Source of the DNA: Umezawaea tangerina
GTDB lineage: Bacteria > Actinomycetota > Actinomycetes > Mycobacteriales > Pseudonocardiaceae
Direction: 5' to 3'
Assembly (NCBI RefSeq): GCF_003002815.1
Contig: NZ_PVTF01000007.1
Location: 1 to 64,000 of the forward strand
DNA: 64,000 nt
This document shows, one piece after another, positions 5,486-38,660 of this stretch. Below the pieces are notes generated by a model that was given only the letters and a program-made list of their open reading frames with translations, searched no databases and was not told where the DNA came from. How positions within the stretch are numbered: position 1 is the stretch's first letter; each line of letters begins with the position of its first letter. The translations under genes and the position numbers were made by a program.

Positions 5486-5539
5486 TTGAACCACAACAGG
5501 TCCCACCGCCGTGCGCGTCCACTGGGGAGCGACCGGTGA
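5486..5539 (+). CDS. Possible 17-codon leader peptide
   Basis: A strong Shine-Dalgarno AGGAGGA (5474-5480) stands 5 nt before a TTG that opens a short frame reading MNHNRSHRRARPLGSDR. Its TGA (5537-5539) overlaps the GTG start of the monooxygenase gene (GTGA), so the two would be translationally coupled. The peptide is basic and has no recognisable domain. It could be a regulatory leader, or the SD may be fortuitous, because the main gene has its own GGGGAG at 5524-5529. Confidence 0.4.
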   Translation: MNHNRSHRRARPLGSDR

Positions 5540-8405: not shown

Positions 8406-9199
8406 CCGACTCCCACGACATCGCCCGCCTGGTGGCGGGGCTGGCCCACGCGCAGGACCGCCGCGACTGGACCGCGTTGCGGGCGCTGTTCGCCGATCGC
8501 ACGCACCTCGACCTGTCCGGTCACCCCGGCGCCCCGGCCGAGGACGTCACCGCCGACGCGCTGGTCGCCAGGGCGCGGTCGGTGCTGGAGGGCTTCGACC
8601 GCACGGTCCACACGCCCTGGCACCTGGTGGCCACTGTGGACGGTGTCGAGGCGACTTGCCGGGCAGAGGTGATCGCCTACCACCACGTGCCGACCGCACC
8701 CGGAGCGGTGGGGGAGTGCACGATGCGCGGCCACTGGGACCTGGCTCTGCGCAAGGAGTCCGGCCGCTGGCTGGTGCACCGGTGGGCCGTGGTGCGGACG
8801 GAACCGTGGGAGGGTTCGCCCGACGTCTACCGGCTCGCGGCCGAGCGCGTCCGGACCCGCCGCGGACAGCACGACGGCGGGTACTTCGAGGTCCGCCGCG
8901 AGCGGGCCGCGGCGGGACGGCGCGCGGACCTGGTGCGGTGCATGGGGGAGCAGGTCATCCCGCTGCACGTGGAGAAGGGGATGGAGGTGGTCGCCGCGTT
9001 CGTCGACCTGGACGACGAGGACGCCTACGTGTGGGTCCGCCGGTTCGCACACGAGGACGAGCGCCGCGCCGTGCTCGACGCGGTCCACGACGACCCGCGC
9101 TGGCGCGACGGGATCGGCCCGGCGGTGCGGGACCTGCTCGCGCCGGGCCGACCGTCCACCACCCGCCTGGTCCCCGTGGACACGGAAGTCCTGCCCTGA
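8402..9199 (+). CDS. SnoaL-like domain fused to NIPSNAP-like domain
   Basis: 265 residues. The first ~145 resemble a SnoaL-4/NTF2-like cone fold (VAGLAHAQDRRDWTALRALF, then GHWDLALRKESGRWLVHRWAV), often a cyclase, isomerase or small hydroxylase-like partner. Residues ~158-255 look like a NIPSNAP/dimeric alpha-beta barrel (YFEVRRERA ... HVEKGMEVVAAFV). The GTG start overlaps the upstream stop. No catalytic residue can be assigned with certainty. As the last gene of the LysR-linked operon, it probably acts on a product of the monooxygenase or hydrolase. Fusion of these two small folds in one chain is unusual. Confidence 0.7.
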   Translation: MTDSHDIARLVAGLAHAQDRRDWTALRALFADRTHLDLSGHPGAPAEDVTADALVARARSVLEGFDRTVHTPWHLVATVDGVEATCRAEVIAYHHVPTAPGAVGECTMRGHWDLALRKESGRWLVHRWAVVRTEPWEGSPDVYRLAAERVRTRRGQHDGGYFEVRRERAAAGRRADLVRCMGEQVIPLHVEKGMEVVAAFVDLDDEDAYVWVRRFAHEDERRAVLDAVHDDPRWRDGIGPAVRDLLAPGRPSTTRLVPVDTEVLP

Positions 9200-9220
9200 C
9201 GGCGCGTCCGGCGGTCGCGG

Positions 9221-10021
9221 TCAGGTCGAGGGACGGCCGAAGATCGTGCGTTCCAGGTCGTGTGCGGCCGTGCGCACGGCCTCGGCGCAGCGCTCCCGGT
9301 TCTGCCGGACGCGCTCCCTCGGACCGGAGACGCTGATGGCGCCGTGCGCGGTGCCCCTGGTGTCGACCACCGGCGCGCTCACGGCGGCCAGGTCGTCTTC
9401 GCTCTCGCCGTCGTTGAACGCGTACCCCTGCGACCGCACCAGCTTCAGCTCCTCCGACAGCGCGCGTCGGGAGCGGATGGTCGCCGAGGTGCTCACGGCC
9501 AGCCGTGCGGAGGGGAACACGTGCTGGAGCTCGTCCTCGCTCAGCCGGGCCAGCAGGCACTTGCCCGCGGCGGTGGCGTGGGCGGGCATGCGGGCGCCGA
9601 CCCGCGAGGCGGCGCGGATGACGTGGCCGCCCTCGATCGCGGCGACGAAGACGATGTCGGTGCCCTCCAGCACGATCAGCTGGGCGGTCTCGCCCGTCTC
9701 GGCCGCGGCCTGCGCCAGGAACGGGGTCGCCTCGCTCTTCAGGTCGCCGACGCCGATGACCGACATCCCGAGCTCGACCAGCCGGTACCCGGCGCCGTAG
9801 GACTTGTCGTCGCTGTTGTAGCGCAGCAGGCCGCGGTCGAGCAGGGTGGTCACCATGCGGTGCGCGGTCGACCGCGCCACGTCGAGGCCCTTGGCGACGT
9901 CGCTGGTGCGCAGCCACGGCCGCTCGATGAGCATGAGCAGGATCCGGGCGGCGTTGTCGACGGCCTCGATGGTGTACGGGCCTCGGGTGGGCTCGGCGGG
10001 TGGGCGGTCGGCCGTGGACAT
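9221..10021 (-). CDS. IclR-family transcriptional regulator
   Basis: 266 residues from the ATG reading MSTADRPP. An upstream in-frame start at 10093 would add 24 residues with no support. The N-terminal winged helix (ILLMLIERPWLRTSDVAKGLDVARSTAHRMV) is followed by the IclR effector domain (GETAQLIVLEGTDIVFV, RMPAHATAAGKCLLA, GAISVSGP). It sits between two catabolic-type operons, convergent with the first (22 bp apart) and divergent from the second. It most likely regulates the second, starting at 10287. IclR proteins usually sense aromatic or short acids. Confidence 0.92.
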   Translation of the reverse strand: MSTADRPPAEPTRGPYTIEAVDNAARILLMLIERPWLRTSDVAKGLDVARSTAHRMVTTLLDRGLLRYNSDDKSYGAGYRLVELGMSVIGVGDLKSEATPFLAQAAAETGETAQLIVLEGTDIVFVAAIEGGHVIRAASRVGARMPAHATAAGKCLLARLSEDELQHVFPSARLAVSTSATIRSRRALSEELKLVRSQGYAFNDGESEDDLAAVSAPVVDTRGTAHGAISVSGPRERVRQNRERCAEAVRTAAHDLERTIFGRPST

Positions 10022-10216
10022 GGACCCAGTATCCCATCTGGTGGTCGGGCTCCGGTCGCGGCCCGTGTTCGGCCCGCCGATCAGGCGTCCCACTGGAAAG
10101 GGGGAGTTCTGCTGGGTGGGACCTTAACCAGGGGACGCGTTCCCGTCCAGAACCTCGGACATCTCGGGAGTTCGGCGAGTGTGTGCCGCGAACGGGCTTT
10201 GCCTCGGGGAGCAGTT

Positions 10217-10254
10217 CGTCCTACTGTGAGGGACGTGTACCGCGCAGTAGGACG
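10217..10254. promoter_or_regulatory. Perfect inverted repeat upstream of the MDR operon
   Basis: CGTCCTACTG (10217-10226) and CAGTAGGACG (10245-10254) are exact 10-bp complements with an 18-bp spacer, 32 bp before the start codon at 10287. The 265-bp divergent interval between the IclR gene and this operon holds no other clear element. It could be the IclR operator, or a hairpin in the leader. Function is inferred. Confidence 0.5.
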
Positions 10255-10286
10255 TGCGGTCCACGTCATCGTCCACCGGAGGAAGG

Positions 10287-11426
10287 ATGTCGGTGTCCGT
10301 ACCCGAGACCAGTCTGCAGCTCCAGTCCCGCCTGTCGCCCGACGCGCGGCTGCACCTGGGGCTGGCCACCGTGCCGGTCGCCCGACCGGCCGCCGACGAG
10401 GTCGTGATCCGCGTGGAGGCCGCGCCGGTCAACCCGTCCGACATCGGCGCGATGATCGGCCCGGCCGACGTCTCGCGCACGCGGGTCGAGCGGTCCGGCG
10501 ACGCGCCGGAGATCTCCATGCCCATGCCGCCGGAGGCGATGCCCGCGCTGGCCGCGAGGGTCGGCCCCGCGGTCCCGGCGGGCGTCGAGGGCGCGGGTGT
10601 GGTCGTTGCGGCCGGTTCGTCCCCACGGGCACGGGCGTTGGTCGGACGGGTGGTGGCCACCAGCACCGGCGCCATGTACGCCCAGCACCGCGTCGCCAAG
10701 GTCGACGACCTGCTGGTGACCAAGGACGGTGCGACACCGGCCGAGGCCGCGTCCTCCTTCGTGAACCCGCTGACGGCGTTGGGCATGCTGGAGACGATGC
10801 GCGGCGAGGGGCACACGGCCCTCGTCCACACCGCCGCGGCCTCGAACCTGGGGCAGATGCTGAACCGGGTCTGCCTCGCCGACGGCGTCGGCCTGGTGAA
10901 CGTCGTGCGCAGCCAGGAGCAGGCGGGGATCCTGCGGGACATCGGGGCCGAGCACGTCGTGGACTCCAGCACGCCGACGTTCCCGGAGGACCTGACCGCC
11001 GCGATCGCGGCGACCGGCGCCACGCTCTGCTTCGACGTGATCGGCGGCGGCGACATGGTCTCGCGCGTGCTGACCGCGATGGAGACCGTCCAGGCGGCGA
11101 AGCTGACCGGGCACCACCGCTACGGGTCGAGCGTCCACAAGCAGGTCTACGTCTGCGGCCGCCTCGACACCCGCCCGACGGAGCTCGCGAACACCTTCGG
11201 CCTGGCCTGGGGTGTCGGCGGATGGCTGCTGACCACCTTCCTCGCCCAGGTGGGGCCCGAGGTCGTCGGTCGTCTGAAGGACCGCGTGGCCGACGAGCTC
11301 ACCACGACGTTCGCCAGCCGCTACGCGCGCACGATCTCGCTGCGCGAGGCCCTGGACCCCGAGGTCGTCGCCGCCTACCACCGCCGTGCGACCGGCGAGA
11401 AGTACCTGATCGCGCCGCAGTCGTGA
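10287..11426 (+). CDS. MDR-family zinc-type alcohol dehydrogenase/quinone reductase-like protein
   Basis: 379 residues of the medium-chain dehydrogenase/reductase superfamily. The GroES-like N-terminal half contains EAAPVNPSDIGAM, and the NAD(P)-binding half contains LVHTAAASNLGQML and CFDVIGGGDMV. The structural-zinc Cys cluster is absent, as in quinone/enoyl reductases. ATG follows GGAGGAAGG. First gene of a three-gene operon with an alpha/beta hydrolase and a CocE hydrolase, divergent from the IclR gene. It probably reduces an activated double bond or carbonyl in the same degradative route. The substrate is unknown. Confidence 0.85.
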   Translation: MSVSVPETSLQLQSRLSPDARLHLGLATVPVARPAADEVVIRVEAAPVNPSDIGAMIGPADVSRTRVERSGDAPEISMPMPPEAMPALAARVGPAVPAGVEGAGVVVAAGSSPRARALVGRVVATSTGAMYAQHRVAKVDDLLVTKDGATPAEAASSFVNPLTALGMLETMRGEGHTALVHTAAASNLGQMLNRVCLADGVGLVNVVRSQEQAGILRDIGAEHVVDSSTPTFPEDLTAAIAATGATLCFDVIGGGDMVSRVLTAMETVQAAKLTGHHRYGSSVHKQVYVCGRLDTRPTELANTFGLAWGVGGWLLTTFLAQVGPEVVGRLKDRVADELTTTFASRYARTISLREALDPEVVAAYHRRATGEKYLIAPQS

Positions 11427-11460
11427 GCGGCGCGCGGACACGGGACGAGGAGCCGCGGTG

Positions 11461-12282
11461 ATGGGCGACGAGCTGGCGAAGATCGCGGTGAACGGCGTGG
11501 AGCTGGGCTACCGGGTCCACGGGGCGGCGTCGGGCGGACCGCCGCTGGTGTTCGTCCACGGGTACTGCATGCGCTCCACCTCCGGGTCCTACGAGGAGGT
11601 GCTGGAGCTGCTCGCCGCGAGCCGCACCGTCTACGCGCTCGACTTCCGGGGGCACGGCGCGTCCCCCTGCGACCCGGCGGACTGGACCCTCGCGGCGGTG
11701 GCCGACGACGTGGTGGCCTTCGCGCACGCGCTCGGGCTCGACGCGCCCGCCTACGCGGGGCACTCCCTCGGCGCCCAGATCGGCGTCTTCGCGGAGATCC
11801 GCCATCCGGGGACCTTCTCCGCCCTGTGCCTGCTGGCGCCGGGGCCGGCCGACACCCGCCGCGACCCGGTGGACATGCTCCGGTTCCTCGTCGAGCACGG
11901 GCACGACCGGGACGCGGTGCGCGAGGGGTTCCGCGGGATGTTCGCCCGCCCGCCGGGGCGGATGCTGGAGCTCGCCGTCGACGCCGCGGTCCTGGTCGAC
12001 AGCGGCGTGCACCGCGCGTTGTCCGAGCAGAACTCGACGCACTCGGTCGACGACCGGCTCGGGGAGGTCGCCGCGCCGACGCTGCTGGTCCGCGGGGAGC
12101 GCGACACCGTCATCGCGCCCGAGCGGCAGCACGACCTGGCGCGGAAGCTGAGGCGCTGCAAGGAGGTGGCCTTCTCCACCGAGGGCCACATGCTGCCGCA
12201 GGAGAGCCCCGCCATGACCGCGCGGGAGATCCTCGCCTTCCTCGACCACGACCGGGAACCACTGGTCGCCGCGACGCCGTGA
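11461..12282 (+). CDS. Alpha/beta hydrolase
   Basis: 273 residues. It has the oxyanion motif HGYCMR, the nucleophile elbow GHSLGA (Ser), an acid in VRGERDTVIAP and the His in STEGHMLPQE. The fold is that of small esterases and C-C bond hydrolases. The start is ATG 11461 or the GTG just before it, with GACGAGGAG upstream. It lies 34 bp after the MDR gene and its stop overlaps an alternative start of the next gene. By context it could hydrolyse an ester or a ring-cleavage product, but no motif settles this. Confidence 0.88.
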   Translation: MGDELAKIAVNGVELGYRVHGAASGGPPLVFVHGYCMRSTSGSYEEVLELLAASRTVYALDFRGHGASPCDPADWTLAAVADDVVAFAHALGLDAPAYAGHSLGAQIGVFAEIRHPGTFSALCLLAPGPADTRRDPVDMLRFLVEHGHDRDAVREGFRGMFARPPGRMLELAVDAAVLVDSGVHRALSEQNSTHSVDDRLGEVAAPTLLVRGERDTVIAPERQHDLARKLRRCKEVAFSTEGHMLPQESPAMTAREILAFLDHDREPLVAATP

Positions 12283-17681: not shown

Positions 17682-18182
17682 GGCGGCGGTCCTTTCCGGT
17701 TGGCGGGTGGTCGGCGACCCTGGGACGAACCCGGCGCGGTGGTCTCGACACGGTATGCCTGTGACGGCGGTCACCCTCCTTCGAGGCGTGCCCGCCCACC
17801 GGGAGCGTCGGCCGAATTCCGCAGGGCCCGCCGTGATTCGGGTGCGCGAACCAATTCCCCTTTCTCATTTCACCCGGTGTGCGTGGTGGCAACATCTCGC
17901 CCAACGGCGTGCTTGACGCCCTCGACGTCGCCGGGCTAAATTCCGACAAATGGGAAGACAATTAGGGGATTGAGTCGCGAGTCGTCGTTGACGTGGGAGA
18001 ACCGGGTATTCACGTCAATGGCCGTCGGATCGTCGAGGGTCACGCATTTTATGCGGAATGACGTGCCGTGGACACCCGGAATTCCCTAGTCCTCCACCGC
18101 GGCGTCGATTGCGGGACGGCCGGGAATCCGGCGGACACCACAGGCGCGGCCGGGGAACCGGCTCGGACGGGCGGTGCAGCCG
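17682..18182. other. 500-bp regulatory interval
   Basis: No convincing gene. The middle (about 17800-18070) is AT-richer than its surroundings. It should carry the divergent promoters of the DDN-like gene and of the MmyB-type regulator gene. I see no strong palindrome. Confidence 0.5.
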
Positions 18183-19043
18183 ATGCGGGGGAAGACCGAG
18201 GCGATCACGCGGGGCGCGCTGGCCGACTTCCTGCGCCAGCGGCGCGACGCGCTGTCACCGGAGGTGGTGGGGCTGCGGGCCGGTCTGCGGCGCCGCGCGC
18301 CGGGCCTGCGCCGGGACGAGGTGGCGCGCCTGGCGAACATGTCGACGACCTACTACGAGCGGCTGGAGCAGGGGCGCGGCCCGCAGCCGTCGGCCGCCAT
18401 CCTCGGCGGCCTGGCGCGCGCGTTGCGGCTGGACCCGGACGAGCGGGCCTACCTGCACCTGCTGGCCGGGCACGCCGAGCCCGTGGTGGCGGCACCGGCC
18501 GCCGCCGTCGACCCCCGGCTGCTGTCGGTGATGCGGGCGATGGCGGCGACGTTCCCGGCGTTCGTCACCGACGACCTGGGCACCGTGGCGGCGCAGAACG
18601 AGCTGTACACGAGGCTGTTCGGCCGGGTCGCCGGACGGCCCCGCCGGGAGGGAAACCTGTTCTGGGGCTGGTTCGCCTCCGGCCGGTTGCGCCGGTCGGT
18701 CCTGAACCCGCCGGAGCACCAGGAGTCCATCGGCCGCAACTTCGTCGCCTACCTGCGGGTCGTCGTGGCCAAGCGCGGCTACGACGTGGCCGCGGCGGCA
18801 CTGGTGGCGGACCTGTGCGCGGCGAGCGAGGAGTTCCTGCGGATGTGGGACGAGCACCGGGTCTCCAGCTCGCCGTTCCCGGTCTTGAGCGTGCTGGACG
18901 ACCGGGTCGGCAGGCTGGACTTCGAGGGCGCGCTGATGGTCAACTCGCGGTTGGGGCAACGCCTGTACTCGCTGCACGCGGTCACCGGCACCCCCACCCA
19001 GCAGCGGTTGACCGCGCTCATCGTCGGGTCGTCAGCCCGGTGA
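18183..19043 (+). CDS. XRE/MmyB-type transcriptional regulator
   Basis: 286 residues. An N-terminal XRE helix-turn-helix (LRAGLRRRAPGLRRDEVARLANMSTTYYERLEQGRGPQPS region) is followed by the MmyB-like ligand-binding domain (FVTDDLGTVAAQNELYTRLFG, ... LDFEGALMVNSRLGQRL), a PAS-like fold known to bind fatty acids. MmyB homologues regulate antibiotic clusters such as methylenomycin. The start is ATG 18183, or GTG 18174 just before it. Its last 26 bp overlap the 3' end of the convergent aminotransferase gene, so it is the natural candidate to regulate the facing operon. Confidence 0.9.
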   Translation: MRGKTEAITRGALADFLRQRRDALSPEVVGLRAGLRRRAPGLRRDEVARLANMSTTYYERLEQGRGPQPSAAILGGLARALRLDPDERAYLHLLAGHAEPVVAAPAAAVDPRLLSVMRAMAATFPAFVTDDLGTVAAQNELYTRLFGRVAGRPRREGNLFWGWFASGRLRRSVLNPPEHQESIGRNFVAYLRVVVAKRGYDVAAAALVADLCAASEEFLRMWDEHRVSSSPFPVLSVLDDRVGRLDFEGALMVNSRLGQRLYSLHAVTGTPTQQRLTALIVGSSAR

Positions 19044-20277
19044 AGGCCTCCTCCATCCTGGTCAGCGCCGCGGCCAGGTGCGGCAGGCGGACGGGGTCGT
19101 CGGCGGCCAGTGCCTCCCGCTGCTGGTCCTCGTCGCCGTAGAGCAGGCTGGTGGCGGCCTTGAAGCGGAGCCCGCGCACGTCGTCGCCGAGCAGGTGCCC
19201 CGGCAGGACGACGACGCCCGAGTCGTCCAGCAGCCGCCTGCCCAGCTCGGCGGAGTCCCCGATGCCGTTGCCCGCCAGCAGCCCGCGGACCGGCTCGAAG
19301 TCGGGGTAGACGTAGAACCCGCCCGTCGGCGGCCTGCACCGGGCACCGGACCTGGTGACGACGTCGTGCACCGCCCTGGCCACCGCACCGTGCAGCCGGG
19401 TGCCGGCGGCGAGCCGTTCGCGGATCTCGGGCGGCTCCGCGTAGACGTGCTCCACGACGTGCTGCATCGGCCCGGCCAGCGTCGACCAGACCTCGCCGGC
19501 CACCGACACCACGGAGTCCCGGAGCCACCGGCCGCGGTCCCCCTCGGGGAACCGGGCGACCCCGATCCGCCAGCCGCCCAGGCCCAGCGACTTGGACAGG
19601 CCGCTGGTCACCACGGTCCGGTCCGGCACGACCTCGGCCGGGCTGAGGAACGGGGTCGCCGCGGGGTCGTGCACGAGGTCGCGGTAGATCTCGTCCGAGA
19701 CGACCAGCAGGTCCTCGGCCTCTGCGACGGCGCACACCTCGCGCACCAGCGAGGGCGGCGCGAGCGTGCCGGTCGGGTTGTCCGGCAGCGTGAGCACCAG
19801 CAGCCGCGGGTCGCGGCCGCGCGCCCTGGCGGCGTGGACGGCCCGCCGCAGGGCCCCCGGCTCCGGCACACCACCGCACGCGTCCGGGATCGGCACCCCG
19901 ATGACCTCCTTGCCCGCGTACCGGACCTGGGCGGCGTAGCTGTTCCACGCCGGGCGCGGCAGCAGGACGTCGCCGGGCACGGCGAGCTGCAGCGCCATCA
20001 GCAGCGCCTTGCTGCCGGGCGCCAGCACGATCTGGTCGGCGTCGGTGGGCAGCCGCCGCCGACCGAAGTAGCCCGCCACCGCGGCGCGGGCGGACTCGGC
20101 GCCCGCGACCGGTCCGTACGCCGTGCGGCGGGCCCCCGCGGCGAGCTGCCGGGCCAGCTCCGGGAGCAGGGGGAGCCGGGCCTCGCCGAAGGCCAGGTGC
20201 ACCAGGGACTCCCCGTCGGCCCGGCGCCGGTCGACCATCTGGTTGAGCGCGAGGTTGGGTGACAGGTCGGTGGTCAT
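19018..20277 (-). CDS. PLP-dependent aminotransferase, class I/II
   Basis: 419 residues, fold type I. Visible motifs are NPTG at 167-170, SDEIY at 194-198 and the PLP Lys at about 229 in SGLSKSLGLGGWR. ATG with GAGGAG upstream overlaps the KamA stop (ATGA), so it is the last gene of the six-gene operon. It probably removes or adds an amino group on the pathway's amino acid. The N-terminal AFGEARLPLLPEL segment is typical of aspartate/valine-type aminotransferases, but the substrate is open. The 3' end runs 26 bp into the oppositely oriented regulator gene. Confidence 0.9.
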   Translation of the reverse strand: MTTDLSPNLALNQMVDRRRADGESLVHLAFGEARLPLLPELARQLAAGARRTAYGPVAGAESARAAVAGYFGRRRLPTDADQIVLAPGSKALLMALQLAVPGDVLLPRPAWNSYAAQVRYAGKEVIGVPIPDACGGVPEPGALRRAVHAARARGRDPRLLVLTLPDNPTGTLAPPSLVREVCAVAEAEDLLVVSDEIYRDLVHDPAATPFLSPAEVVPDRTVVTSGLSKSLGLGGWRIGVARFPEGDRGRWLRDSVVSVAGEVWSTLAGPMQHVVEHVYAEPPEIRERLAAGTRLHGAVARAVHDVVTRSGARCRPPTGGFYVYPDFEPVRGLLAGNGIGDSAELGRRLLDDSGVVVLPGHLLGDDVRGLRFKAATSLLYGDEDQQREALAADDPVRLPHLAAALTRMEEAFTGLTTRR

Positions 20278-21593
20278 GGGGCGCTCCTCGGTGGCTTGCA
20301 CGCCGCGGCGAGGTCAGGCGGTGTGTCGGGCGCGAGGTCGAGCTCGTCGAGCCACGCCGCGGTGGCCGAGTAGCGGGCGCGGAACGGCCTGCCGACCAGG
20401 GCGGGGTCGCGGGCCTGCACCATGCGCAGCTGGAAGAAGCCGCCGTCGACCCCGTCCACGACGACCTTGCCCGGTGCCGCCGACATCACCGGGCCGCGGA
20501 CGGTGCGGGCGAGCCCCGGCAGCGTGCGGTAGGCCGTCCGGAAGACGTCCACGGCCCTGGCCAGCGGCACCTTGAAGTAGTCGTGCGGTCCGGTGTCCCG
20601 TGCCACGAACAGGTAGTACGGCACGGTGCCCGCCGCCAGCTCCGCCCGCCACAGCTCGGCCACGACCGCGGCGTCGTCGTTGACGTGGGCGATCAGCGGG
20701 GCCTGGCAGTACACCGCGGCACCGGTGGCGCGGATCCGCAGCAACGCGCGCCGCGCCGGGTCGGTCTCCAGCTCGCGCGGGTGGCTGAAGTGCGCCATGA
20801 CGGCCAGCTGCCTGCCCGAGGCGACGACGTCCTCGAACAGGCGGGCCACCTCGTCGGCGTCGGGGTCGGTGGTGAAGCGGTGGGGCCAGTAGGCGACCGA
20901 CTTGGTGCCGATCCGGATCGTGCGCACGGTCTCGACGGCCAGCAGCGGCGCAATATGGCTGCGGAGCCGTTGCGCGGACATCACCATCGGGTCGCCGCCG
21001 GTCACCAGGACGTCGCTGACCTCCGGGTGCGCGCGCAGGTAGGCGACCAGCCCTGACGGTTCCGGTGCGGCGAACCGCAGCTCGGGATCCCCGATGAACT
21101 GCGCCCACCGGAAGCAGTAGGTGCAGTACGCGTGGCAGGTCTGCCCCTGTCCGGGGAAGTAGAGGACGGTCTCGCGGTACTTGTGCTGCAACCCCGGCAC
21201 CGCCGCACCCGCCTGGACGGGCACGTTGGACCGCTGCGCGGACGGGTGCGGGTTGAGGCCCGCGCGGATGTCGTCGACCACCTCCCGCAGCCGCCCGCCG
21301 GTCGTCGCCGCCAGCCGCCGCTCGTCGGAGTCGGGCAGCATGCCGGGCTGCGGGAAGGTCAGCCGGAAGATCGGGTCGTCCGGCACGGCCGCCCAGTCGA
21401 CCAGGTTGTCCAGCACGTAGTCGTTGACCCGGAACGGGAGCACCAGGGAGACCCGCCGCATCGACTCGCGGACGTCCGGCGGCAGCCCGTACCGGTCCGC
21501 GATCGCGTCGAGGTGGCGCGGGCCGTAGGCGTGGAACCTGGTGCCCTCCAGTGCGTTCGGCATCGCGAAGCCGTTCCTCCGGGGGTCAGCCAC
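20274..21593 (-). CDS. KamA-family radical SAM 2,3-aminomutase
   Basis: 439 residues from the GTG that overlaps the panC-like stop by 8 bp. The ATG reading MPNALEG (21563) is an alternative. The radical SAM cluster CHAYCTYC has Cys at 153, 157 and 160. TGGDPM and the C-terminal segment VNDDAAVVAELWRA ... VPYYLF match lysine 2,3-aminomutases (SAM + PLP, moving the alpha-amino group to C3). The usual DAPGGGGK region is shortened to SAAPGK (Lys at about 376), so the Asp that holds the lysine side-chain amine appears lost. Lysine may not be the substrate; another alpha-amino acid giving a beta-amino acid is likely. Confidence 0.85.
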   Translation of the reverse strand: MADPRRNGFAMPNALEGTRFHAYGPRHLDAIADRYGLPPDVRESMRRVSLVLPFRVNDYVLDNLVDWAAVPDDPIFRLTFPQPGMLPDSDERRLAATTGGRLREVVDDIRAGLNPHPSAQRSNVPVQAGAAVPGLQHKYRETVLYFPGQGQTCHAYCTYCFRWAQFIGDPELRFAAPEPSGLVAYLRAHPEVSDVLVTGGDPMVMSAQRLRSHIAPLLAVETVRTIRIGTKSVAYWPHRFTTDPDADEVARLFEDVVASGRQLAVMAHFSHPRELETDPARRALLRIRATGAAVYCQAPLIAHVNDDAAVVAELWRAELAAGTVPYYLFVARDTGPHDYFKVPLARAVDVFRTAYRTLPGLARTVRGPVMSAAPGKVVVDGVDGGFFQLRMVQARDPALVGRPFRARYSATAAWLDELDLAPDTPPDLAAACKPPRSAP

Positions 21594-22443
21594 CGATGAC
21601 GACGGGCAGGTGGTCGACCAGGTGCGTGCCGCCCACCCTGGCGATCACACCCAGCACCGCGTCGCCGCGGAAGTCGTCCGGGACGGCGGCGAAGGTGTCG
21701 GCGTCCACGACGGTCAGCGACTTCACCAGCAGCGGCGGGTCGAGCCTGCTCGCGGCGTCGAGCACCTCCTCGGCCGCGGCGAGGGCGTCCTTCGCGGTAT
21801 CCAGGTGTTCCCGCGCGGCGAACAGCGCGCGCGACAACGACAGGGCGGTGACCCGTTCGGCGGGGGACAGGTAGGCGTTGCGGCTCGACATGGCCAGCCC
21901 GTCGGGCTCGCGGACGGTGGGCACGCCGACGATCCGCAGCGGGAAGTCCAGGTCGGCGACCATGCGCCGCACGAGTGCCAGCTGCTGGGCGTCCTTCTCC
22001 CCGAACACGGCCACGTCGGGGGCCACGAGGTGGAAGAACTTGGTGACCACGGTGAGGATCCCAGGGAACAGGTCCGGCCGCAGCGCGCCCTCGTGCGTGG
22101 CGGCGATGGGACCGGGGTCGAGGCGGACCACCGGCCCGCCGTTGGGGTAGACCTCGGCCGAGGTCGGGGCGAACACCACGTCCGCCCCCTCCGCCGCGCA
22201 CAGCGCCAGGTCCGCGTCGAGCTCGCGCGGGTAGCGGTCGAAGTCCTCCGCGGCCCCGAACTGGAGCGGGTTGACGAAGACGCTGACCACGACGGTCGCC
22301 GCCTCGCGCCGGGCGGCGCGGATCAACGCCGCGTGCCCGGCGTGCAGCGATCCCATGGTCATCACGAGGGCCAGGCCACCGCTGCCGCGGTCGACCACCT
22401 CGGCCAGTTCCGCGCGGGAGCGGACAAGGACGCACCGGGACAC
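21586..22443 (-). CDS. PanC-like pantothenate synthetase homologue
   Basis: 285 residues. True PanC uses ATP to join pantoate and beta-alanine. Conserved signatures are present: MGSLHAGH (HIGH at 34-37), VFVNPLQF, DFDRYPRELDADL, FGEKDAQQL, VREPDGLAMSSRNAYLS. The substrate loop usually reading like RP(G/T)HFxGV is here LRPDLFPGI, lacking the His. GTG start with GGAGGTGAG upstream, 5 bp after the methyltransferase gene. Placement inside an operon with an aminomutase and two other amide-forming enzymes suggests a pathway role with a beta-amino acid in place of beta-alanine. A plain housekeeping role cannot be excluded. Confidence 0.87.
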   Translation of the reverse strand: MSRCVLVRSRAELAEVVDRGSGGLALVMTMGSLHAGHAALIRAARREAATVVVSVFVNPLQFGAAEDFDRYPRELDADLALCAAEGADVVFAPTSAEVYPNGGPVVRLDPGPIAATHEGALRPDLFPGILTVVTKFFHLVAPDVAVFGEKDAQQLALVRRMVADLDFPLRIVGVPTVREPDGLAMSSRNAYLSPAERVTALSLSRALFAAREHLDTAKDALAAAEEVLDAASRLDPPLLVKSLTVVDADTFAAVPDDFRGDAVLGVIARVGGTHLVDHLPVVIGG

Positions 22444-22448
22444 CGGTC

Positions 22449-23177
22449 TCACCTCCGGTCGCAGGTCATCAGGGAGCTGACCGGGTGTTCCCGGTACCTC
22501 AGCCAGAAGGACTCGTCGCGGTCGCCGTCGGGCGGCGGCGTGCGCACCGGTGACCAGCTGACGGTGCCGAAACCCGCCTGGACCGCGGCGAGCTCGTAGT
22601 CCGCGAGCTGCCACTCGTAGTCCTCCAGCGGCGTCGGCGGGTCGGTGGTGAACTCCTGGCGGATCAGCGGGACCTCCTCGCCGGGCACGCGGTCGAGCAG
22701 GCGCAGCCCGAACTCCTCGTAGTTGCCCTCGGGGAACGGGGTGGGGTTGGGCACGATGGCCAGCAGCCGGCCGCCGTCGGTCAGCGTCGCCCGGATGTTG
22801 AGGAACATCGAGTGCAGCGCCGCGCGGCTGGACGCGTAGTTGAACAGGTAGACCGCGGTGGCCAGGTCGAAGCGCCCCAGCGGCGGGAGGTCGGTCGCGT
22901 CGGCGATGACGTACTCGATGCCCAGCGGTGCCCTCGCCTCGTACTTCTGGGCGAGCCGCACCATCTCCACCGAGACGTCCACGCCCACCACCGGTCGGGC
23001 ACCGCTCTCGGCCAGCAACCGGGTGTTGTAGCCGTACCCGCAGGCGAGGTCGAGGGCGGACAGCCCGGTGAGGTCGCCGAGCGCGCCGCACAGGGTGAAC
23101 GTGTCCGCGGCGGAGAAGGCGGCGGTGGACTTGGACTCCTCGAACCGCGCGCCGATCGCGTCGTACTGCTCGCTCAT
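22449..23177 (-). CDS. Class I SAM-dependent methyltransferase
   Basis: 242 residues with the Rossmann-type SAM site ALDLACGYGYNTRLL (about 42-55), an acidic strand-2 end (VGVDVSVEM), then ADATDLPPLGRFDLATAVYLFNY. This is a small-molecule N- or O-methyltransferase fold. The ATG overlaps the asparagine-synthetase stop by 4 bp. Within the operon it probably methylates an amine, carboxylate or hydroxyl of the assembled product. The acceptor cannot be predicted from sequence. Confidence 0.88.
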   Translation of the reverse strand: MSEQYDAIGARFEESKSTAAFSAADTFTLCGALGDLTGLSALDLACGYGYNTRLLAESGARPVVGVDVSVEMVRLAQKYEARAPLGIEYVIADATDLPPLGRFDLATAVYLFNYASSRAALHSMFLNIRATLTDGGRLLAIVPNPTPFPEGNYEEFGLRLLDRVPGEEVPLIRQEFTTDPPTPLEDYEWQLADYELAAVQAGFGTVSWSPVRTPPPDGDRDESFWLRYREHPVSSLMTCDRR

Positions 23178-25177
23178 CGCCGGACCAGCGCCCCGCCCGT
23201 GCCGTCGAACTCCCGCAGCAGGATCCGGTCGATGTCCAGGTCGGGCACCCGGAAGTCGTCGACGAGGCTGTCCTGGAGCAGCAACGTGCTGAGCACCTGG
23301 AGGTAGGCGTGGTTGTCCGGGAAGGGAACCGATCCGTCCTCAGTGGACTTGACGCGGTCGACGAGCCGCCGCACGCCGTGCGGGTCGAGCACGCCGCAGT
23401 CGCGCACCCGGCGCGGTGACAGGAGCTCGTCCACCCAGTCGCCCGTGCCCGTCGGGAGCAGGTGCTCCGCGCCGGGGACCCGCATCCCGAACTTCGGCCG
23501 GTCGCGGATCTCGGCGGGCAGGACGTCCGCGTACGCCTCGCGCAGGACGTGCTTCTCACGGGTCAGCCCGCGCAGCTTCCACTCGCGGGGCAGCCCGGCC
23601 GCGAACTCGACGACCGACCTGTCCACGAAGGGGTAGCGCGCCTCGATGCGGCACCCGGCGCCGGGACGGTCGGCCAGGCAGGTCATCCCGTAGCCGCACA
23701 ACAGGGTCACGAAGTCGAGCACCTGCGATCGGCCGACCACGTCCAGGTCGTCGTACCCGCTCACCTGGGCGCGCGCGAACTCCGCCAGCCGCCGGTCGTC
23801 GTCGGCGACGCCGTCGCGTGCCGCCAGCAGACCGGGCAGCAGCTCGGCCTCGAACCGGCGCAGGTGGGCGCCCAGCACCGGGCCGCCGTCGCCCGCCCGC
23901 TCCTGGAAGAAGCGCAGGATGTCGCCCGCCGTCATCGGGTCGGTGAGCAGGACGTCGTTCAACCCCTTGCCCAGCAGCGCTTCCCGCTCCGCCGTGAACC
24001 CGTCGGCCAGGCAGGAGTCCAGGACGGTGGCCTCCTTGAGGATGTCGTAGCCGAAGAACGACTCGTCGGCGCCCTCGCCGCCCAGCACGATCCGGACCCC
24101 GGCCTTCCCGACGTGCTCGGCGAGCATCTCGGAGGCGACCGGCGCGCAGAAGTGCAGCAGCGCCTCGCACTTGCGGACCAGGTTCGGGAACCGGTCGCGG
24201 ATGTCGCGGCCGGTGACCACCACCGACGAGTGGTCGGTGCCCAGCTTCTCCGCGATGACCCGCTGGTAGGCCGACTCGTCCGCCCAGGACCCCGGCACGG
24301 TGATGGAGAACGTGGGCAGCGTGCCGGTCGTGCGCTCCCGGACGATCGCGGCGATGACGCTCGAGTCCAGCCCTCCGCTGAGGAACGCGCCGAGGGGGTA
24401 GTCCCCGCGCAGCCGGAACCGGACCGCCTCGTCGAGCCGGTCGCGCAGCTCCTCCTTGGCGGCCTCGAAGGTCAGGCCCGGCCGTGCTCCCGCGCCCCGG
24501 TCCACCGGAATCTCGAAGTAGCGCGACACCACCACCCCGGCGGGGCCGACGCGGGCGAAGTGGCCGGGGGGAAGGCTGCGCACACCGGTGAAGCACGTCT
24601 CACCCGGCACCGGTGTCCAGTAGCGGCCGTTGGCCCGGACGCCGTCGGCCGACAGCTCGCGGCGCACCTCCGGGAACGCGAACAGGCCCTTGATCTCGGA
24701 GGCGAAGTAGAGGGAGCCGCCCTGTTCGGTGTAGAACAACGGCCGTTCGCCGAACGGGTCGCGCCCCAGCAGCAGCTCCTGCCGTTCGCGGTCGTAGAAC
24801 GCGAAGGCGAACTGGCCGTTGAGCCGGTCGAGCGCCCGCTCACCCCAGACCACGAGGCTGTGCAGCAGGACTTCCGTGTCCGACCTCGTGGCGAACGAGA
24901 CCCCCCGCGCCTCCAGCTCGTGCCGCAGCTCCAGGTAGTTGAAGATCTCCCCGTTGAACCCGAGCACGTACCGGTCGTCGGCGGTGACCATCGGCTGCTT
25001 GCCCAGCAGCGGGTCGATGACCGAGAGCCGGACCGTGCCGAAGCTGAGCCGGGCGTCGTCGTAGATGCCGACCTCGTCGGGGCCGCGGTGGGCGATCGCC
25101 CGGACACCGCGGCGCAGGTTCGTGATCCGGTCCTCCTTCCGCTTGCCGCTGTTGACGAAACCGACGACACCGCACAT
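23174..25177 (-). CDS. asnB: Asparagine synthetase-like glutamine-hydrolysing amidotransferase
   Basis: 667 residues, class II glutamine amidotransferase plus ATP-pyrophosphatase. The nucleophile is Cys2 (MCGVVGFV), with RGPDEVG and FNGEIFNY in the glutaminase domain. The synthetase PPi loop SGGLDSS is at 267-273. Length is near the upper end for AsnB. It converts a carboxylate to an amide via an acyl-adenylate, in primary metabolism on aspartate but in gene clusters often on a dedicated acid. Second gene of the operon, 39 bp after the GS-like gene and overlapping the methyltransferase gene. Context favours a specialised substrate over asparagine. Confidence 0.9.
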   Translation of the reverse strand: MCGVVGFVNSGKRKEDRITNLRRGVRAIAHRGPDEVGIYDDARLSFGTVRLSVIDPLLGKQPMVTADDRYVLGFNGEIFNYLELRHELEARGVSFATRSDTEVLLHSLVVWGERALDRLNGQFAFAFYDRERQELLLGRDPFGERPLFYTEQGGSLYFASEIKGLFAFPEVRRELSADGVRANGRYWTPVPGETCFTGVRSLPPGHFARVGPAGVVVSRYFEIPVDRGAGARPGLTFEAAKEELRDRLDEAVRFRLRGDYPLGAFLSGGLDSSVIAAIVRERTTGTLPTFSITVPGSWADESAYQRVIAEKLGTDHSSVVVTGRDIRDRFPNLVRKCEALLHFCAPVASEMLAEHVGKAGVRIVLGGEGADESFFGYDILKEATVLDSCLADGFTAEREALLGKGLNDVLLTDPMTAGDILRFFQERAGDGGPVLGAHLRRFEAELLPGLLAARDGVADDDRRLAEFARAQVSGYDDLDVVGRSQVLDFVTLLCGYGMTCLADRPGAGCRIEARYPFVDRSVVEFAAGLPREWKLRGLTREKHVLREAYADVLPAEIRDRPKFGMRVPGAEHLLPTGTGDWVDELLSPRRVRDCGVLDPHGVRRLVDRVKSTEDGSVPFPDNHAYLQVLSTLLLQDSLVDDFRVPDLDIDRILLREFDGTGGALVRR

Positions 25178-25216
25178 GGACGTACCCCACCTTGTCGAGT
25201 GATGGACGGGTGGAAC

Positions 25217-26587
25217 TCAGACCGACTCGAGGTAGCGGCGCCGCTCCCAGCCGGTCACCTCGGCGTCGGCGGCCGCCTGCTCCGCCTGGCCCAGCAGGCA
25301 CAGCAGCCGCGTCAGCTCGTCGCCCAGCGCCGACCGCGCGAACTTGCTCCGGTCCAGCAGGGTCACGGCCTCCGCCACGGTGCGCGGCAGCGGTTCGGCG
25401 TCGCCCCCGGCGTAGACGTCCGCGGTCGACTCGGGCGGCGGTTCCCGGTGGTCCTCCAGCCCGGCGAGCCCCGCCAGCAGCTGGGTGGCCACCAGCAGGT
25501 GGGGGTTGGCGTCGGCCGTCGCCACCCGGTGCTCCAGCCGGGTCCCGGCGTCGCCGTGCACGAGCGCGCGCACCGCGACCGAGCGATGGTCGAACCCCCA
25601 GGTGACGTGGGTCGGCGCGAACGAGTAGCCCACGGACCGCTTGTAGCCGTTGGGGGTCGGGACGGCGACGTGGCAGGTCTCGGCGACGTGGTGCACCAGA
25701 CCGCCCAGGTAGGACCGCCCCTGCTCGCTGAGCCCGCCGGTCTCCTCGTCCCAGAAGGCGTTGCGGCCCGTCCGCCGGTCGCGCAGGCTCTGGTGCACGT
25801 GCAGCCCGCTGCCGGAGGACTCCGCCCACGGCTTGGCCATGAACGTGGCCAGGTACCCGTGCGAGGCCGCGACCTGCTTGACCGCGTAGCGGAAGAACAC
25901 CAGGTCGTCCGCTGCGGCCAGCGGCGCGGAGTACCGCAGGTTGATCTCCACCTGGCCCGCGCCGTACTCCGCCCCGCTGGCCTCCACCACCACGCCCACG
26001 GCGTGCAGCGCCGACTGGACGTCCCGGATCACCGGCCACAGGTAGGAGTCGTCGTGCAGGCTGTAGATGGGGTTGCGCCCGTGGCGCGGGCGCAGCGTCT
26101 CCCGGTCGAGCAGGTAGAACTCGGTCTCCAGGCCCACGTCCGGCTCGAACCCCGCCTGCCGGACGCGGTCCTGCGCGCGGCGGAGCACCAGCCGCGGGTC
26201 GAGCGGGACGGGCAGGCCCTCCCGGTCGACGACGTCGCAGAACACCAGCGCCGTCCCCGGCCGCCACGGCACCAGCCGCAGGGTCGTCGGGTCCGGCACC
26301 AGGAAGACGTCCGGATAGCCGCTCTCCCAGCTGTACCCGCCCGCGGGCGGCAGCACGTCGAGGCCGTAGTCGAGGCAGAACACCCCGGAGGAGAGCGCGA
26401 ACTCCGCGGTCCGCCGGAAGACCTGCGCGGGGATCCGCTTGCCCCGGATCGCCCCCATCACGTCCACGACGGCGAGCTCGACGGTCTCGATCGAGTGGTC
26501 GTCGATGAACCGGTCGACTGCCCGCGTCCCGTCTCCCACCGTGGCATCACGCACGGGACCGACGGTAGGAGTACCGATCCGGGCCAA
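25217..26587 (-). CDS. Glutamine synthetase-like ligase (GlnA3/4/PuuA type)
   Basis: Up to 456 residues of the GS fold. The N-terminal beta-grasp part reads ELAVVDVMGAIRGKRIP. The ATP/glutamate sites are GLETEFYLLDRETL, GAGQVEINL, KPWAESSGSGLHVHQSL and the C-terminal RLEHRVATADANPHL. This is the gamma-glutamyl-amine/polyamine ligase branch, not housekeeping GlnA, which would carry a GDNGSGMH(T/C)HQS box. It forms an amide between a carboxylate (often glutamate) and an amine. The start is uncertain: TTG 26587 gives the full N-terminus, with later GTG codons possible. First gene of the operon, behind a 71-bp region with palindromes. Confidence 0.85.
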   Translation of the reverse strand: MARIGTPTVGPVRDATVGDGTRAVDRFIDDHSIETVELAVVDVMGAIRGKRIPAQVFRRTAEFALSSGVFCLDYGLDVLPPAGGYSWESGYPDVFLVPDPTTLRLVPWRPGTALVFCDVVDREGLPVPLDPRLVLRRAQDRVRQAGFEPDVGLETEFYLLDRETLRPRHGRNPIYSLHDDSYLWPVIRDVQSALHAVGVVVEASGAEYGAGQVEINLRYSAPLAAADDLVFFRYAVKQVAASHGYLATFMAKPWAESSGSGLHVHQSLRDRRTGRNAFWDEETGGLSEQGRSYLGGLVHHVAETCHVAVPTPNGYKRSVGYSFAPTHVTWGFDHRSVAVRALVHGDAGTRLEHRVATADANPHLLVATQLLAGLAGLEDHREPPPESTADVYAGGDAEPLPRTVAEAVTLLDRSKFARSALGDELTRLLCLLGQAEQAAADAEVTGWERRRYLESV

Positions 26588-26658: not shown

Positions 26659-27615
26659 TCACGGGGCCGTCCGGCCGTGTTCGGCGAGGAAGTCGAGCAG
26701 GAGCCCGGTGATCTCGTCGGGGCGCTCCTGCTGGATCCAGTGACCGGCCCCCGGCAGGATGACCTTGGGGATGGTCAGCGCCGAGATGAGCTCCTGGGCG
26801 CCGGGCATGACCTGGCTGGGGTCGCGGTCGCCGCCGACGAAGAGCGCGGGCGCCCGGACGGTCGCACCGGCCCACGCGCCGGTGAGCTCCCACCCGCGGT
26901 CCAGCGCGCGGTACCAGTCGAGGGCGCTGGTGAAGCCGGACTCCGCGAAGGTGTCGGCGAAGACGTCGAGCTCCGTCTCGTCGAGCCAGGAGGGCAGCTC
27001 CGCGGGCTCGTCGAGGTAGTCCAGGATGGCGGTGTCCCGCGGCACCACGAGCTGGATGGGGGTCGGGTCGTTGGCGGGGTTGTCGCCGGAGAGGGTGAAG
27101 AGCAGGCGGCGGAAGGTGGTCCGGGGGTCGCGGTCGAACTCGGCGTCCGCCTCGGGCTCCTCGAGGCGGTTCACGTAGAACTCGCCGCCCAGGAGCTCGC
27201 GCATCGTCCGCAACGGCGGGGTGGGCGGGCGGTAGCGGGGCGGCGCGCTCAGGGTGACGACGCCGCGGACCACGTCGGGGCGGAGCAGGGCCGTCTGCCA
27301 GGCGACCGGGGCGCCGAAGTCGTGGCCGACGACGGTGGCCCGCTCCTCGCCGAAGGCGTGGACGAGCCCGACGACGTCACCGACCAGGTGGAGCATCGTG
27401 TAGTCGTCGACGGACCCCGGCCGGTCGCTGCGGCCGAACCCGCGCTGGTCGGGGGCGACCACGTGGTACCCGGCCGCGGCGAGCGCGGGGATCTGGTGGC
27501 GCCAGGAGTACCAGAGCTCGGGGAACCCGTGCAGCAGCAGGACGAGCGGTCCTTCTCCCGCCTCCACCACGTGCAGGCGGATGCCGTTGGTCTCGATGAA
27601 CCCGTGGGTGGTCAT
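26659..27615 (-). CDS. Epoxide hydrolase-like alpha/beta hydrolase
   Basis: 318 residues. HGFPELWYSW carries the HGxP oxyanion motif, and the nucleophile is Asp in GHDFGAPVAW, diagnostic of soluble epoxide hydrolases and haloalkane dehalogenases. The His is in GAGHWIQQERP, with a cap domain in between. It adds water to epoxides, probably xenobiotic or lipid-derived. ATG. It lies 89 bp downstream of a TetR gene on the same strand, with an operator-like palindrome between them. It may read through into the GS-like operon, but the palindromes there argue for a separate unit. Confidence 0.9.
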   Translation of the reverse strand: MTTHGFIETNGIRLHVVEAGEGPLVLLLHGFPELWYSWRHQIPALAAAGYHVVAPDQRGFGRSDRPGSVDDYTMLHLVGDVVGLVHAFGEERATVVGHDFGAPVAWQTALLRPDVVRGVVTLSAPPRYRPPTPPLRTMRELLGGEFYVNRLEEPEADAEFDRDPRTTFRRLLFTLSGDNPANDPTPIQLVVPRDTAILDYLDEPAELPSWLDETELDVFADTFAESGFTSALDWYRALDRGWELTGAWAGATVRAPALFVGGDRDPSQVMPGAQELISALTIPKVILPGAGHWIQQERPDEITGLLLDFLAEHGRTAP

Positions 27616-38000: not shown

Positions 38001-38660
38001 ATGGATCCGGTGCTGAGCGGCCGCGGACTGGCCAAGAGGTACGGCGGGACACCCGCCCTCGACGGTGTGGACATCGACATCGGCGAAGGGGAGGTGCTGG
38101 CCGTGGTCGGGCCGTCGGGCTCGGGCAAGACGAGCCTCCTGCACGTGCTGTCCGGGATCGTGCCCGCCGACGGGGGAGAGGTGTTCCTCGACCGCGCCCC
38201 GCTCGGCGGGCTGTCCGAGGCGGGGCGCGGCAGGCTGCGGCGCACCGCGTTCGGCTTCGTGTTCCAGTCCGGGATGCTCGTCGACGAGCTGACCGCGGAG
38301 GAGAACGCGGCGTTGCCGATGCTGCTGGGCGGCGCGCCCCGCGGGCTCGCGCTGCGCACGGCCCGCGAGTGCCTGGGCAGGCTCGGTCTGTCGGGGTTGG
38401 AGGCGCGCAGACCCGCCGCGCTGTCCGGCGGCCAGGCCCAGCGGGTCGCCATCGCCCGCGCGCTCGTGCACCGGCCGCGGGTCGTCTTCGCCGACGAGCC
38501 GACCGGGGCGCTGGACACCAGGACCGGGTACGAGGTCATGTCCGCGCTGCTGGAGGCCGCGCGGGACACCGGTGCCGCGGTGGTGGTCGTGACGCACGAC
38601 CGGACCATCGCCGACCGCGCCCACCGGGTGGTCGGACTCCAGGACGGCAGGTCGGGATGA
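38001..38660 (+). CDS. ABC transporter ATP-binding protein (MacB/LolD type)
   Basis: 219 residues with Walker A GPSGSGKTS, signature LSGGQAQR, Walker B VVFADEPTGALD and switch His in VVVTHD. It is the ATPase partner of the FtsX-like permease, whose ATG overlaps its stop (ATGA). No clear RBS precedes the ATG at 38001, so leaderless or weak translation is possible. Probably an exporter of peptides or lipophilic drugs, next to a two-component system. Confidence 0.93.
   Translation: MDPVLSGRGLAKRYGGTPALDGVDIDIGEGEVLAVVGPSGSGKTSLLHVLSGIVPADGGEVFLDRAPLGGLSEAGRGRLRRTAFGFVFQSGMLVDELTAEENAALPMLLGGAPRGLALRTARECLGRLGLSGLEARRPAALSGGQAQRVAIARALVHRPRVVFADEPTGALDTRTGYEVMSALLEAARDTGAAVVVVTHDRTIADRAHRVVGLQDGRSG

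Follow-up and report, generated by a model that had tools for sequence, protein, structure and literature searches.

A six-gene operon without assembly-line enzymes in Umezawaea tangerina and a tentative route to a beta-methyl pantothenamide-like amide

We analyzed an operon of six leftward genes in a stretch of 64,000 nucleotides from Umezawaea tangerina (contig NZ_PVTF01000007.1, positions 1 to 64,000; hereafter the window), which is a part of contig C7 of a 10.7 Mb genome. The six genes and a convergent gene for an MmyB-type regulator were confirmed in the window by open reading frames (ORFs), Pfam and NCBIfam. The features are as follows.

25217..26554, minus strand: glutamine synthetase (GS)-like ligase, 445 aa from GTG; Gln-synt_C, 281 bits
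23174..25177, minus strand: AsnB-like amidotransferase, 667 aa; Asn_synthase and GATase_7, with a Cys right behind the first Met
22449..23177, minus strand: S-adenosylmethionine (SAM) methyltransferase of the ToxA kind, 242 aa; Methyltransf_25, probably an N-methyltransferase
21586..22452, minus strand: PanC-like ligase, the second copy in the genome, 285-288 aa; Pantoate_ligase, 291 bits
20274..21593, minus strand: KamA-like radical SAM enzyme of the IdnL4/PlmK type, 439 aa; Cys153/157/160, Arg332, Lys376
19018..20301, minus strand: pyridoxal phosphate (PLP) fold-type I protein with an aminotransferase fold, IdnL3/PlmJ type; Aminotran_1_2, 147 bits, probably a beta-glutamate beta-decarboxylase
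18174..19043, plus strand: MmyB-type regulator (MLTR_LBD); PF17765, 105 bits
26588..26608, minus strand: conserved inverted repeat CCACGTACAAACAGGACGTGG, a candidate operator, 33 bp before the GTG of the GS-like gene

The longest frame of the GS-like gene opens at TTG 26587; GTG 26554 is its probable start because it matches the GTG starts of two other Umezawaea copies (L033 and L156). The PanC-like gene starts at GTG 22443 (alternative GTG 22452) and the aminotransferase-fold gene at ATG 20277 (alternative GTG 20301). With the start codons checked, the GS-like and AsnB-like genes are 39 bp apart, the AsnB-like and methyltransferase genes overlap by 4 bp, a gap of 5 bp separates the methyltransferase and PanC-like genes, and the remaining junctions are overlaps of 8 bp (PanC/KamA) and 4 bp (KamA/aminotransferase-fold gene). 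The convergent regulator gene shares 26 bp at its 3' end with the aminotransferase-fold gene; the start 18183 given to it in an earlier reading is an ATG in frame with 18174. The layout given by a preceding sequence-only reading (six leftward genes with three overlaps of 4-8 bp and gaps of 5 and 39 bp, faced by an MmyB-type regulator) is exact with the chosen starts.

Searches with the KamA-like protein covered 200 genomes of the family and 397 of the order, and we read the loci of all 24 other family matches at E<=1e-76 and of 14 of the 24 new order matches; the Umezawaea sample comprised three genomes, the source genome included. In the genomes searched, the full six-gene set was found besides the window only in U. 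endophytica (L033), in the same gene order and with 82-88% protein identity of the six enzymes. The ratio of non-synonymous to synonymous substitution rates (dN/dS) between the two is 0.26-0.40 for the six enzymes, and by this comparison of sequences the operon appears to be under purifying selection where it is retained. A methyltransferase scan of 84,980 species genomes, which may omit the genome of the window itself, gave four loci from 255 pattern matches; because it requires exact short peptide stretches, distant versions of the operon could be missed. The order GS-AsnB-methyltransferase is kept in all four scan loci: Kibdelosporangium banguiense (L100) has these three genes followed by PanC, with no KamA or aminotransferase-fold gene in the operon, and Actinoplanes sp. 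NBRC 103695 (L101) and Amorphoplanes auranticolor (L102) have the three genes alone. A remnant was found in Umezawaea sp. Da 62-37:

L156 (G022 C1:422000-441500), 8100-11521: operon remnant of Umezawaea sp. Da 62-37

It holds the whole GS-like gene (83%) and AsnB residues 1-262 (88%), then one unmatched frame and a relative (86%) of the F420-type reductase whose gene sits beyond the regulator in the window; the remaining operon genes are missing from this place. The gene set is more than a group of chance neighbours, since its order recurs in U. endophytica and parts of that order recur in three further genera. Within Umezawaea the operon is probably old, and its patchy distribution and the remnant indicate that it is dispensable. 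The sequence-only reading would have been refuted if the genes did not co-occur in other genomes; they do, as the full set in U. endophytica and as nested sets in three other genera. Across actinomycetes, however, the co-occurrence is narrow, with no complete set seen outside Umezawaea in the genomes searched.

The adjacent KamA-like and PLP genes are well supported by sequence as a maker of 3-aminobutyrate shared with assembly-line clusters, a reading that rests on clade pairing, tree nesting, macrolactam cluster context and active-site residues. KamA relatives split into a close and a far clade, and an aminotransferase-fold gene stands in 18 of 18 close-clade loci (L033 and 17 others) versus one of 20 far-clade loci. 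Within the stretches read, some adenylating-enzyme relative occurs in 17 of the 18 close-clade loci (the matches in the operon locus of U. endophytica are weak, 27%; none was found in L091, a contig of 10.9 kb), and VinK, the loading acyltransferase for beta-amino acid starters, is encoded in eight loci. Phylogenetic trees place the operon pair within the paired clade (19 KamA rows, 100/100), inside which the branching of the KamA proteins is partly unresolved. To the pairs in the eight VinK loci the operon proteins are 65-71% (KamA) and 60-66% (aminotransferase fold) identical, and they have the same KamA active-site residues as the macrolactam pairs. A Pfam scan of one such cluster (L041) found VinK_C, two AMP-binding enzymes, an acyl carrier protein (ACP), a polyketide synthase (PKS) and a cytochrome P450. 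The gene lengths at L037 and L038 equal those of pretilactam plmK (450), plmJ (419), plmI (308), plmH (507) and plmL (395) and differ at plmG (529 as called here, versus 533).

In the pretilactam cluster seven genes were assigned to 3-aminobutyrate synthesis, with KamA and aminotransferase genes among the candidates (PMC6631532), and the same gene set is named for pretilactam, mirilactam, lobosamide and others (PMC9230918). The incednine route from L-glutamate through beta-glutamate to (S)-3-aminobutyrate is based on feeding, on the in vitro decarboxylation of beta-glutamate by IdnL3, which yields (S)-3-aminobutyrate, and on a knock-out of idnL4 that confirmed the role of this gene (PMC11284099). 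The operon has the adjacent KamA-like and PLP fold-type I genes of the incednine and pretilactam/mirilactam modules; it differs from the macrolactam clusters in that the window lacks the VinK/ACP/PKS set and a PanC-type ligase seems to receive the beta-amino acid. With queries from L041 at E<=1e-3, the 64 kb window yielded no relative of VinK, an adenylating enzyme, ACP, VinJ, PKS or P450. The earlier proposal of a product built without nonribosomal peptide synthetase (NRPS) or PKS is supported, and the operon is an accessory one of ligases.

At the residue level, the KamA-like protein has no Pfam match at 1e-3 and matches the solved lysine 2,3-aminomutase 2a5h (E 3e-20). In a MAFFT alignment, at about 30% identity to proteins of the lysine 2,3-aminomutase (LAM) type, the CxxxCxxC cluster (Cys153/157/160) and Lys376 are kept in all 26 family members. 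This Lys is part of an invariant Gly-Lys and lines up with the PLP lysine, and the idea of a non-aminomutase with a deleted PLP-lysine motif was rejected on this alignment. Arg332 is also present in 26 of 26 members, the far clade included, at a position that is Asp in seven of seven LAM-type proteins; in lysine 2,3-aminomutase this Asp reads the substrate lysine. The Arg at this place fits a substrate side chain bearing a carboxylate. The PLP protein has Lys237 (427-aa frame) within SKSLGLGGWR and reached no NCBIfam cut-off among the 25 of 60 matches listed. The last gene had been taken for an aminotransferase, a view we abandon: it is better explained as the decarboxylase of the 3-aminobutyrate pair, and is probably a partner of KamA in this role and not a transaminase.

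Several far-clade KamA loci were noted in passing. L097 (G485 C2:255500-275000, 9176-11663) is the sole far-clade locus with a relative of the aminotransferase-fold gene (51%), on the opposite strand. Four far-clade KamA genes without a decarboxylase gene (L047, L051, L052 and L053, the last sharing a part) lie in another shared cluster, which at L047 and L051 encodes a TauD-type dioxygenase, an AurF-type oxygenase, an enolase-superfamily enzyme, an Ldh_2 dehydrogenase and a class IV aminotransferase; this is possibly a second undescribed use of the KamA family. At L048, L049 and L056 the KamA gene is three to four genes away from genes for proteins of 167-170 aa and 916-1018 aa, which by eye resemble NrdR and ribonucleotide reductase.

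The operon PanC is unlikely to be needed for vitamin supply because the genome has a second, ordinary PanC, encoded on contig C1 and 52% identical to the operon copy. A search of 396 genomes of the phylum gave matches in 311, and among the matches listed, best first, none outside the window exceeded 289.2 bits; the operon copies score 606 (window), 501 (U. endophytica) and 476 bits (K. banguiense). We compared the sites of these three copies, in M. tuberculosis numbering, with 36 comparators, 29 of which were the best-scoring phylum matches and hence the hardest test. All twelve listed catalytic and pantoate positions are kept in the three copies (Met40, His44, His47, Asn69, Gln72, Phe157, Lys160, Asp161, Gln164, Ser196, Ser197, Arg198). 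His135, present in 33 of 36 comparators, is Leu in all three; Leu146 and Tyr249, invariant in the 36 comparators, are Phe and Ser; Asp248 (33 of 36) is changed; and Arg278 and Asn282, found in all 26 comparators with a residue there (10 gaps), are both His. Two further changes that had looked operon-specific against four comparators, Pro38Met and Tyr162Ala, were dropped, with Met in 16 and Ala in 20 of the 36.

In pantothenate synthetase pantoate is contacted by Gln72, Gln164, Pro38, Phe157 and Met40, the two glutamines by hydrogen bonds, and the carboxyl of beta-alanine by Gln72, Arg198 and His135; Arg278 belongs to a group of four arginines above the active-site cavity (PMC9780415), and Leu146, Tyr249 and Asn282 are pocket residues (PMC11317409). 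The operon PanC has the whole profile of that family, its listed catalytic and pantoate residues and a passing TIGR00018 score, and differs in being a second copy within an operon and in its changed His135, Leu146, Tyr249, Arg278 and Asn282. The clearest change thus concerns the side that binds the amine, and these residues suggest a partner different from free beta-alanine; a fitting one would be 3-aminobutyrate or, better, the amide of it. The KamA/aminotransferase-fold pair is present in all three genomes with an operon-type PanC (the remnant genome is uncounted), in K. banguiense as two pairs, both outside the operon, and in two of two Actinoplanes-type genomes with the whole core and without an operon-type PanC no relative of the aminotransferase-fold protein was found at E<=1e-50. 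These five genomes suggest that the PanC type and the pair co-occur.

The GS-like protein reaches 249 bits with TIGR03105, below the cut-off of 470. The Glu of the GlnA motif PGYEAP, which we take to be the ammonium-site residue E327, is Phe in six of six aligned operon-type copies. Judged from its sequence, the operon protein is not the housekeeping enzyme, and it probably makes no glutamine because the ammonium-site Glu is replaced. The AsnB-like protein exceeds the asn_synth_AEB cut-off (402 versus 267 bits), and its best solved matches, AsnB 1ct9 (155 bits) and the hydroxyamidotransferase 7ylz (152 bits), are near equal. The sequence-only reading would also have failed if PanC and AsnB here were the only genomic copies; the genome has two PanC, eight PF00733 matches (the operon AsnB and one weak fragment of 64 positions included) and six GS genes, the operon copy counted. 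The best solved match of the methyltransferase is 5jdz (E 2e-42), and the fourth is ToxA (8rdl, E 6e-38), the toxoflavin N-methyltransferase, which methylates a nitrogen of toxoflavin; both are among its nearest solved relatives.

A comparable trio is known from fosfazinomycin, where the GS homologue FzmN makes glutamylacetylhydrazine, the AsnB homologue FzmA cleaves glutamylhydrazine after deacetylation, probably moving hydrazine to arginine, and the N-methyltransferase FzmH acts on argininylhydrazine; in trichostatin biosynthesis the hydroxylamine that TsnB9 transfers comes from a glutamyl carrier (PMC6133997). The operon resembles these systems in having a GS homologue, an AsnB homologue and a small-molecule methyltransferase side by side. 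It differs in that no hydrazine or hydroxylamine gene is recognised in it, and it is likened to them by description, to the TsnB9 type through 7ylz.

Relatives of single core genes were also followed. ToxA-like relatives of the methyltransferase (50-61% identity) occur in 17 of 246 Streptomyces-like genomes (L109, L130-L145), and, unlike the operon methyltransferase, they stand without operon-type AsnB, PanC, KamA or aminotransferase-fold genes in 17 of 17 loci, some on short contigs, so these genomes were rejected as a second home of the operon; L135 is the sole such locus with a GS, at 30%. Most of these relatives lie inside another conserved gene block with no function assigned. AsnB relatives at E<=1e-100 were found in 10 of the 200 family genomes; four belong to the operon or its remnant, and the other six were rejected as the same system, being just 35-39% identical, with the three that were read sitting in PKS clusters. 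In those three loci (L157, L158, L159) the AsnB relative lies between acyltransferase/ACP genes and a large PKS, an arrangement that presumably resembles clusters using amidated starter units. In Amorphoplanes auranticolor (L102, 4220-6660) there are genes for a P450 and for a 386-aa protein, by eye terpene-cyclase-like, the second of which overlaps the start of the core GS gene. Heme enzymes that form hydrazines are described (PMC12154649); the idea of a hydrazine route through the L102 gene at 5500-6660 beside the core was given up. That gene has no Pfam match at 1e-5, and by eye its protein resembles the terpene-cyclase type.

An inverted repeat of the form CCAC-N13-GTGG lies upstream of the GS-like gene. 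Allowing up to three mismatches it is unique in the window, with none in 100 shuffles, and it is found at the same place in three of three Umezawaea genomes, including the remnant of Umezawaea sp. Da 62-37. Of 183 loci retrieved, seven match a degenerate form, and each of the seven is a copy of one of these three places. The repeat is a candidate operator, at which transcription of the operon is probably controlled. The MmyB-type regulator is retained at the same position in U. endophytica (75-77% identity; dN/dS 0.60).

The enzyme families of the operon are known and their arrangement is new; we propose the following route. On strong grounds of homology, KamA would convert L-glutamate into beta-glutamate by shifting its amino group to C3, and the PLP enzyme would decarboxylate this to (S)-3-aminobutyrate. 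With moderate support from its site residues, the PanC paralogue would adenylate pantoate or a closely similar 2-hydroxy acid and couple it with 3-aminobutyrate or with the amide of this acid; the skeleton formed would be that of beta-methyl pantothenate. By a weak analogy, the GS-like enzyme might use an amine, not ammonia, to make a gamma-glutamyl-N-X carrier, AsnB might free N-X and put it on a carboxylate, and the ToxA-like methyltransferase might N-methylate the product. The pathway would end in a small N-acyl 3-aminobutyramide similar to a pantothenamide. Support is good for the 3-aminobutyrate step and moderate for the pantoyl step; the chemistry at the amide end (GS, AsnB, N-methyltransferase) we infer from analogy. 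That the whole route operates as a ligase-only specialised-metabolite operon leading to a beta-methyl pantothenamide-like amide is our preferred reading, held tentatively and at somewhat below even chances; as a route to a natural compound of this kind it is plausible. The narrower claim, that bacteria make a natural antivitamin of the pantothenamide type, in which a retuned PanC joins pantoate to (S)-3-aminobutyrate from a module borrowed from polyketide clusters and an N-substituted, N-methylated amide forms the cap, we regard as unlikely. The earlier guess of a pantothenate-like antimetabolite gains from the PanC sites and from a defined source of the beta-amino acid, and its activity is still a guess. 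Like CJ-15,801 and the synthetic pantothenamides, the proposed product would be a pantothenate analogue changed in the beta-alanine half; unlike CJ-15,801, which is fungal (PMC8717973), it would come from a bacterium, and pantothenamides are called synthetic in the abstract of PMC4425855. In the open-licence literature searched, outside of which lie subscription journals and biosynthetic gene cluster databases, we found no paper on such an operon and no comparable bacterial pathway.

Several observations weigh against this route. The KamA-like protein falls below the cut-off of six of six NCBIfam models matched, among them TIGR00238 (124 bits with a cut-off of 199), TIGR03820 (105 and 525) and TIGR04368, the curated glutamate 2,3-aminomutase model (84 and 650), so that the wording of its function in the sequence-only reading is not exact. 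The likeness to IdnL3 and IdnL4 runs through the pretilactam-type cluster and not through direct sequence comparison, and according to PMC11284099 the activity of IdnL4 was not seen in vitro. NCBIfam still names the PanC-like protein PanC (TIGR00018, 252 bits, cut-off 213), three of the 36 comparators have Phe instead of His135, and the operon copies have Met, as 16 comparators do, at the pantoate contact Pro38. The K. banguiense PanC has the same changes in an operon without KamA and its partner, so these changes could serve another acid or amine. Three of the five other GS paralogues in the genome also lack the ammonium-site Glu, one sharing the Phe (at this site there are two Glu, one Phe, one Trp and one Leu). 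No gene for an amine N-X was recognised among the operon proteins by Pfam and NCBIfam, and, according to PMC6133997, the transfer step of FzmA was not observed. The substrate of the core need not be 3-aminobutyrate, because L101 and L102 have GS-AsnB-methyltransferase but neither PanC nor KamA.

These points bear on what PanC joins and on what the core makes. The acid used by PanC could be the N-methylated amide acid from the core instead of pantoate, linked to 3-aminobutyrate; the product would then be a pseudo-dipeptide unrelated to coenzyme A, and Actinoplanes-type strains would make the core acid as such. The nested series (in L101 and L102 just the core, in L100 the core and PanC, in Umezawaea the core, PanC and the KamA pair) agrees with this, and Leu146Phe, Val139Ile and the C-terminal changes could reshape the acid pocket, but Gln72, Gln164, Met40 and Phe157 on the pantoate side are kept in all three copies and the best-described loss, that of His135, is on the beta-alanine side. 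We consider such a dipeptide possible, if somewhat unlikely. It is improbable that the core is an N-X transfer cassette of the fosfazinomycin or trichostatin kind, with a hydrazide or hydroxamate as product in place of a plain or N-alkyl amide. The enzyme types are those of FzmN-FzmA-FzmH, the ammonium-site Glu of GS has become Phe, and 7ylz ranks second among the solved AsnB relatives; however, 152 versus 155 bits does not discriminate, the operon proteins include no N-N or N-O forming gene, each having another family assignment, and none was seen in the five scanned flank proteins of L100-L102.

The two remaining explanations concern the purpose of the operon as a whole. It might make a variant coenzyme precursor (beta-methyl pantothenate, its own cofactor block) or an osmolyte-like amide and not a secreted antimetabolite. 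The Pfam scan, which covered 20 of the 58 genes called in the window, showed neither a transporter nor a resistance gene in the operon, as such a role would allow; yet the patchy distribution and the Da 62-37 remnant mark the operon as dispensable, and we hold this to be distinctly improbable. That spare PanC and AsnB copies of ordinary metabolism are chance neighbours here is hardly credible: both pass curated housekeeping cut-offs, but the genome has the separate PanC on C1 (52% identical) and other AsnB and GS copies, the gene order is conserved in several genera, and the PanC changes are common to the three operon copies.

If the tentatively preferred pantothenate analogue is correct, the operon would give coenzyme A antimetabolites a source in bacteria, and if the antivitamin reading also holds, the product, formed without NRPS or PKS, would be naturally occurring kin of a class of synthetic drugs. 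Coenzyme A antimetabolites are studied against staphylococci and malaria parasites (PMC12172042, PMC8717973), and CJ-15,801 is the natural example in those papers (PMC8717973). A module for polyketide starter units appears here in a ligase-only pathway. The natural series of GS-AsnB-methyltransferase, the same with PanC, and the same with KamA and its partner lets the gene roles be read from the metabolites of five genomes, and the PanC copy, altered at its beta-amino acid site, lends itself to a direct and cheap biochemical test.

The genes flanking the operon were rejected as its members: neither the upstream alpha/beta hydrolase (26659-27615) nor the downstream short-chain dehydrogenase/reductase and F420-type reductase had a match in 19.5 kb of the U. 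endophytica copy. Elsewhere in the window, two long frames with no Pfam match at E<=1e-8 (38657-40822, 721 aa, and 60408-61874, 488 aa) are called as genes by their codon-position GC.

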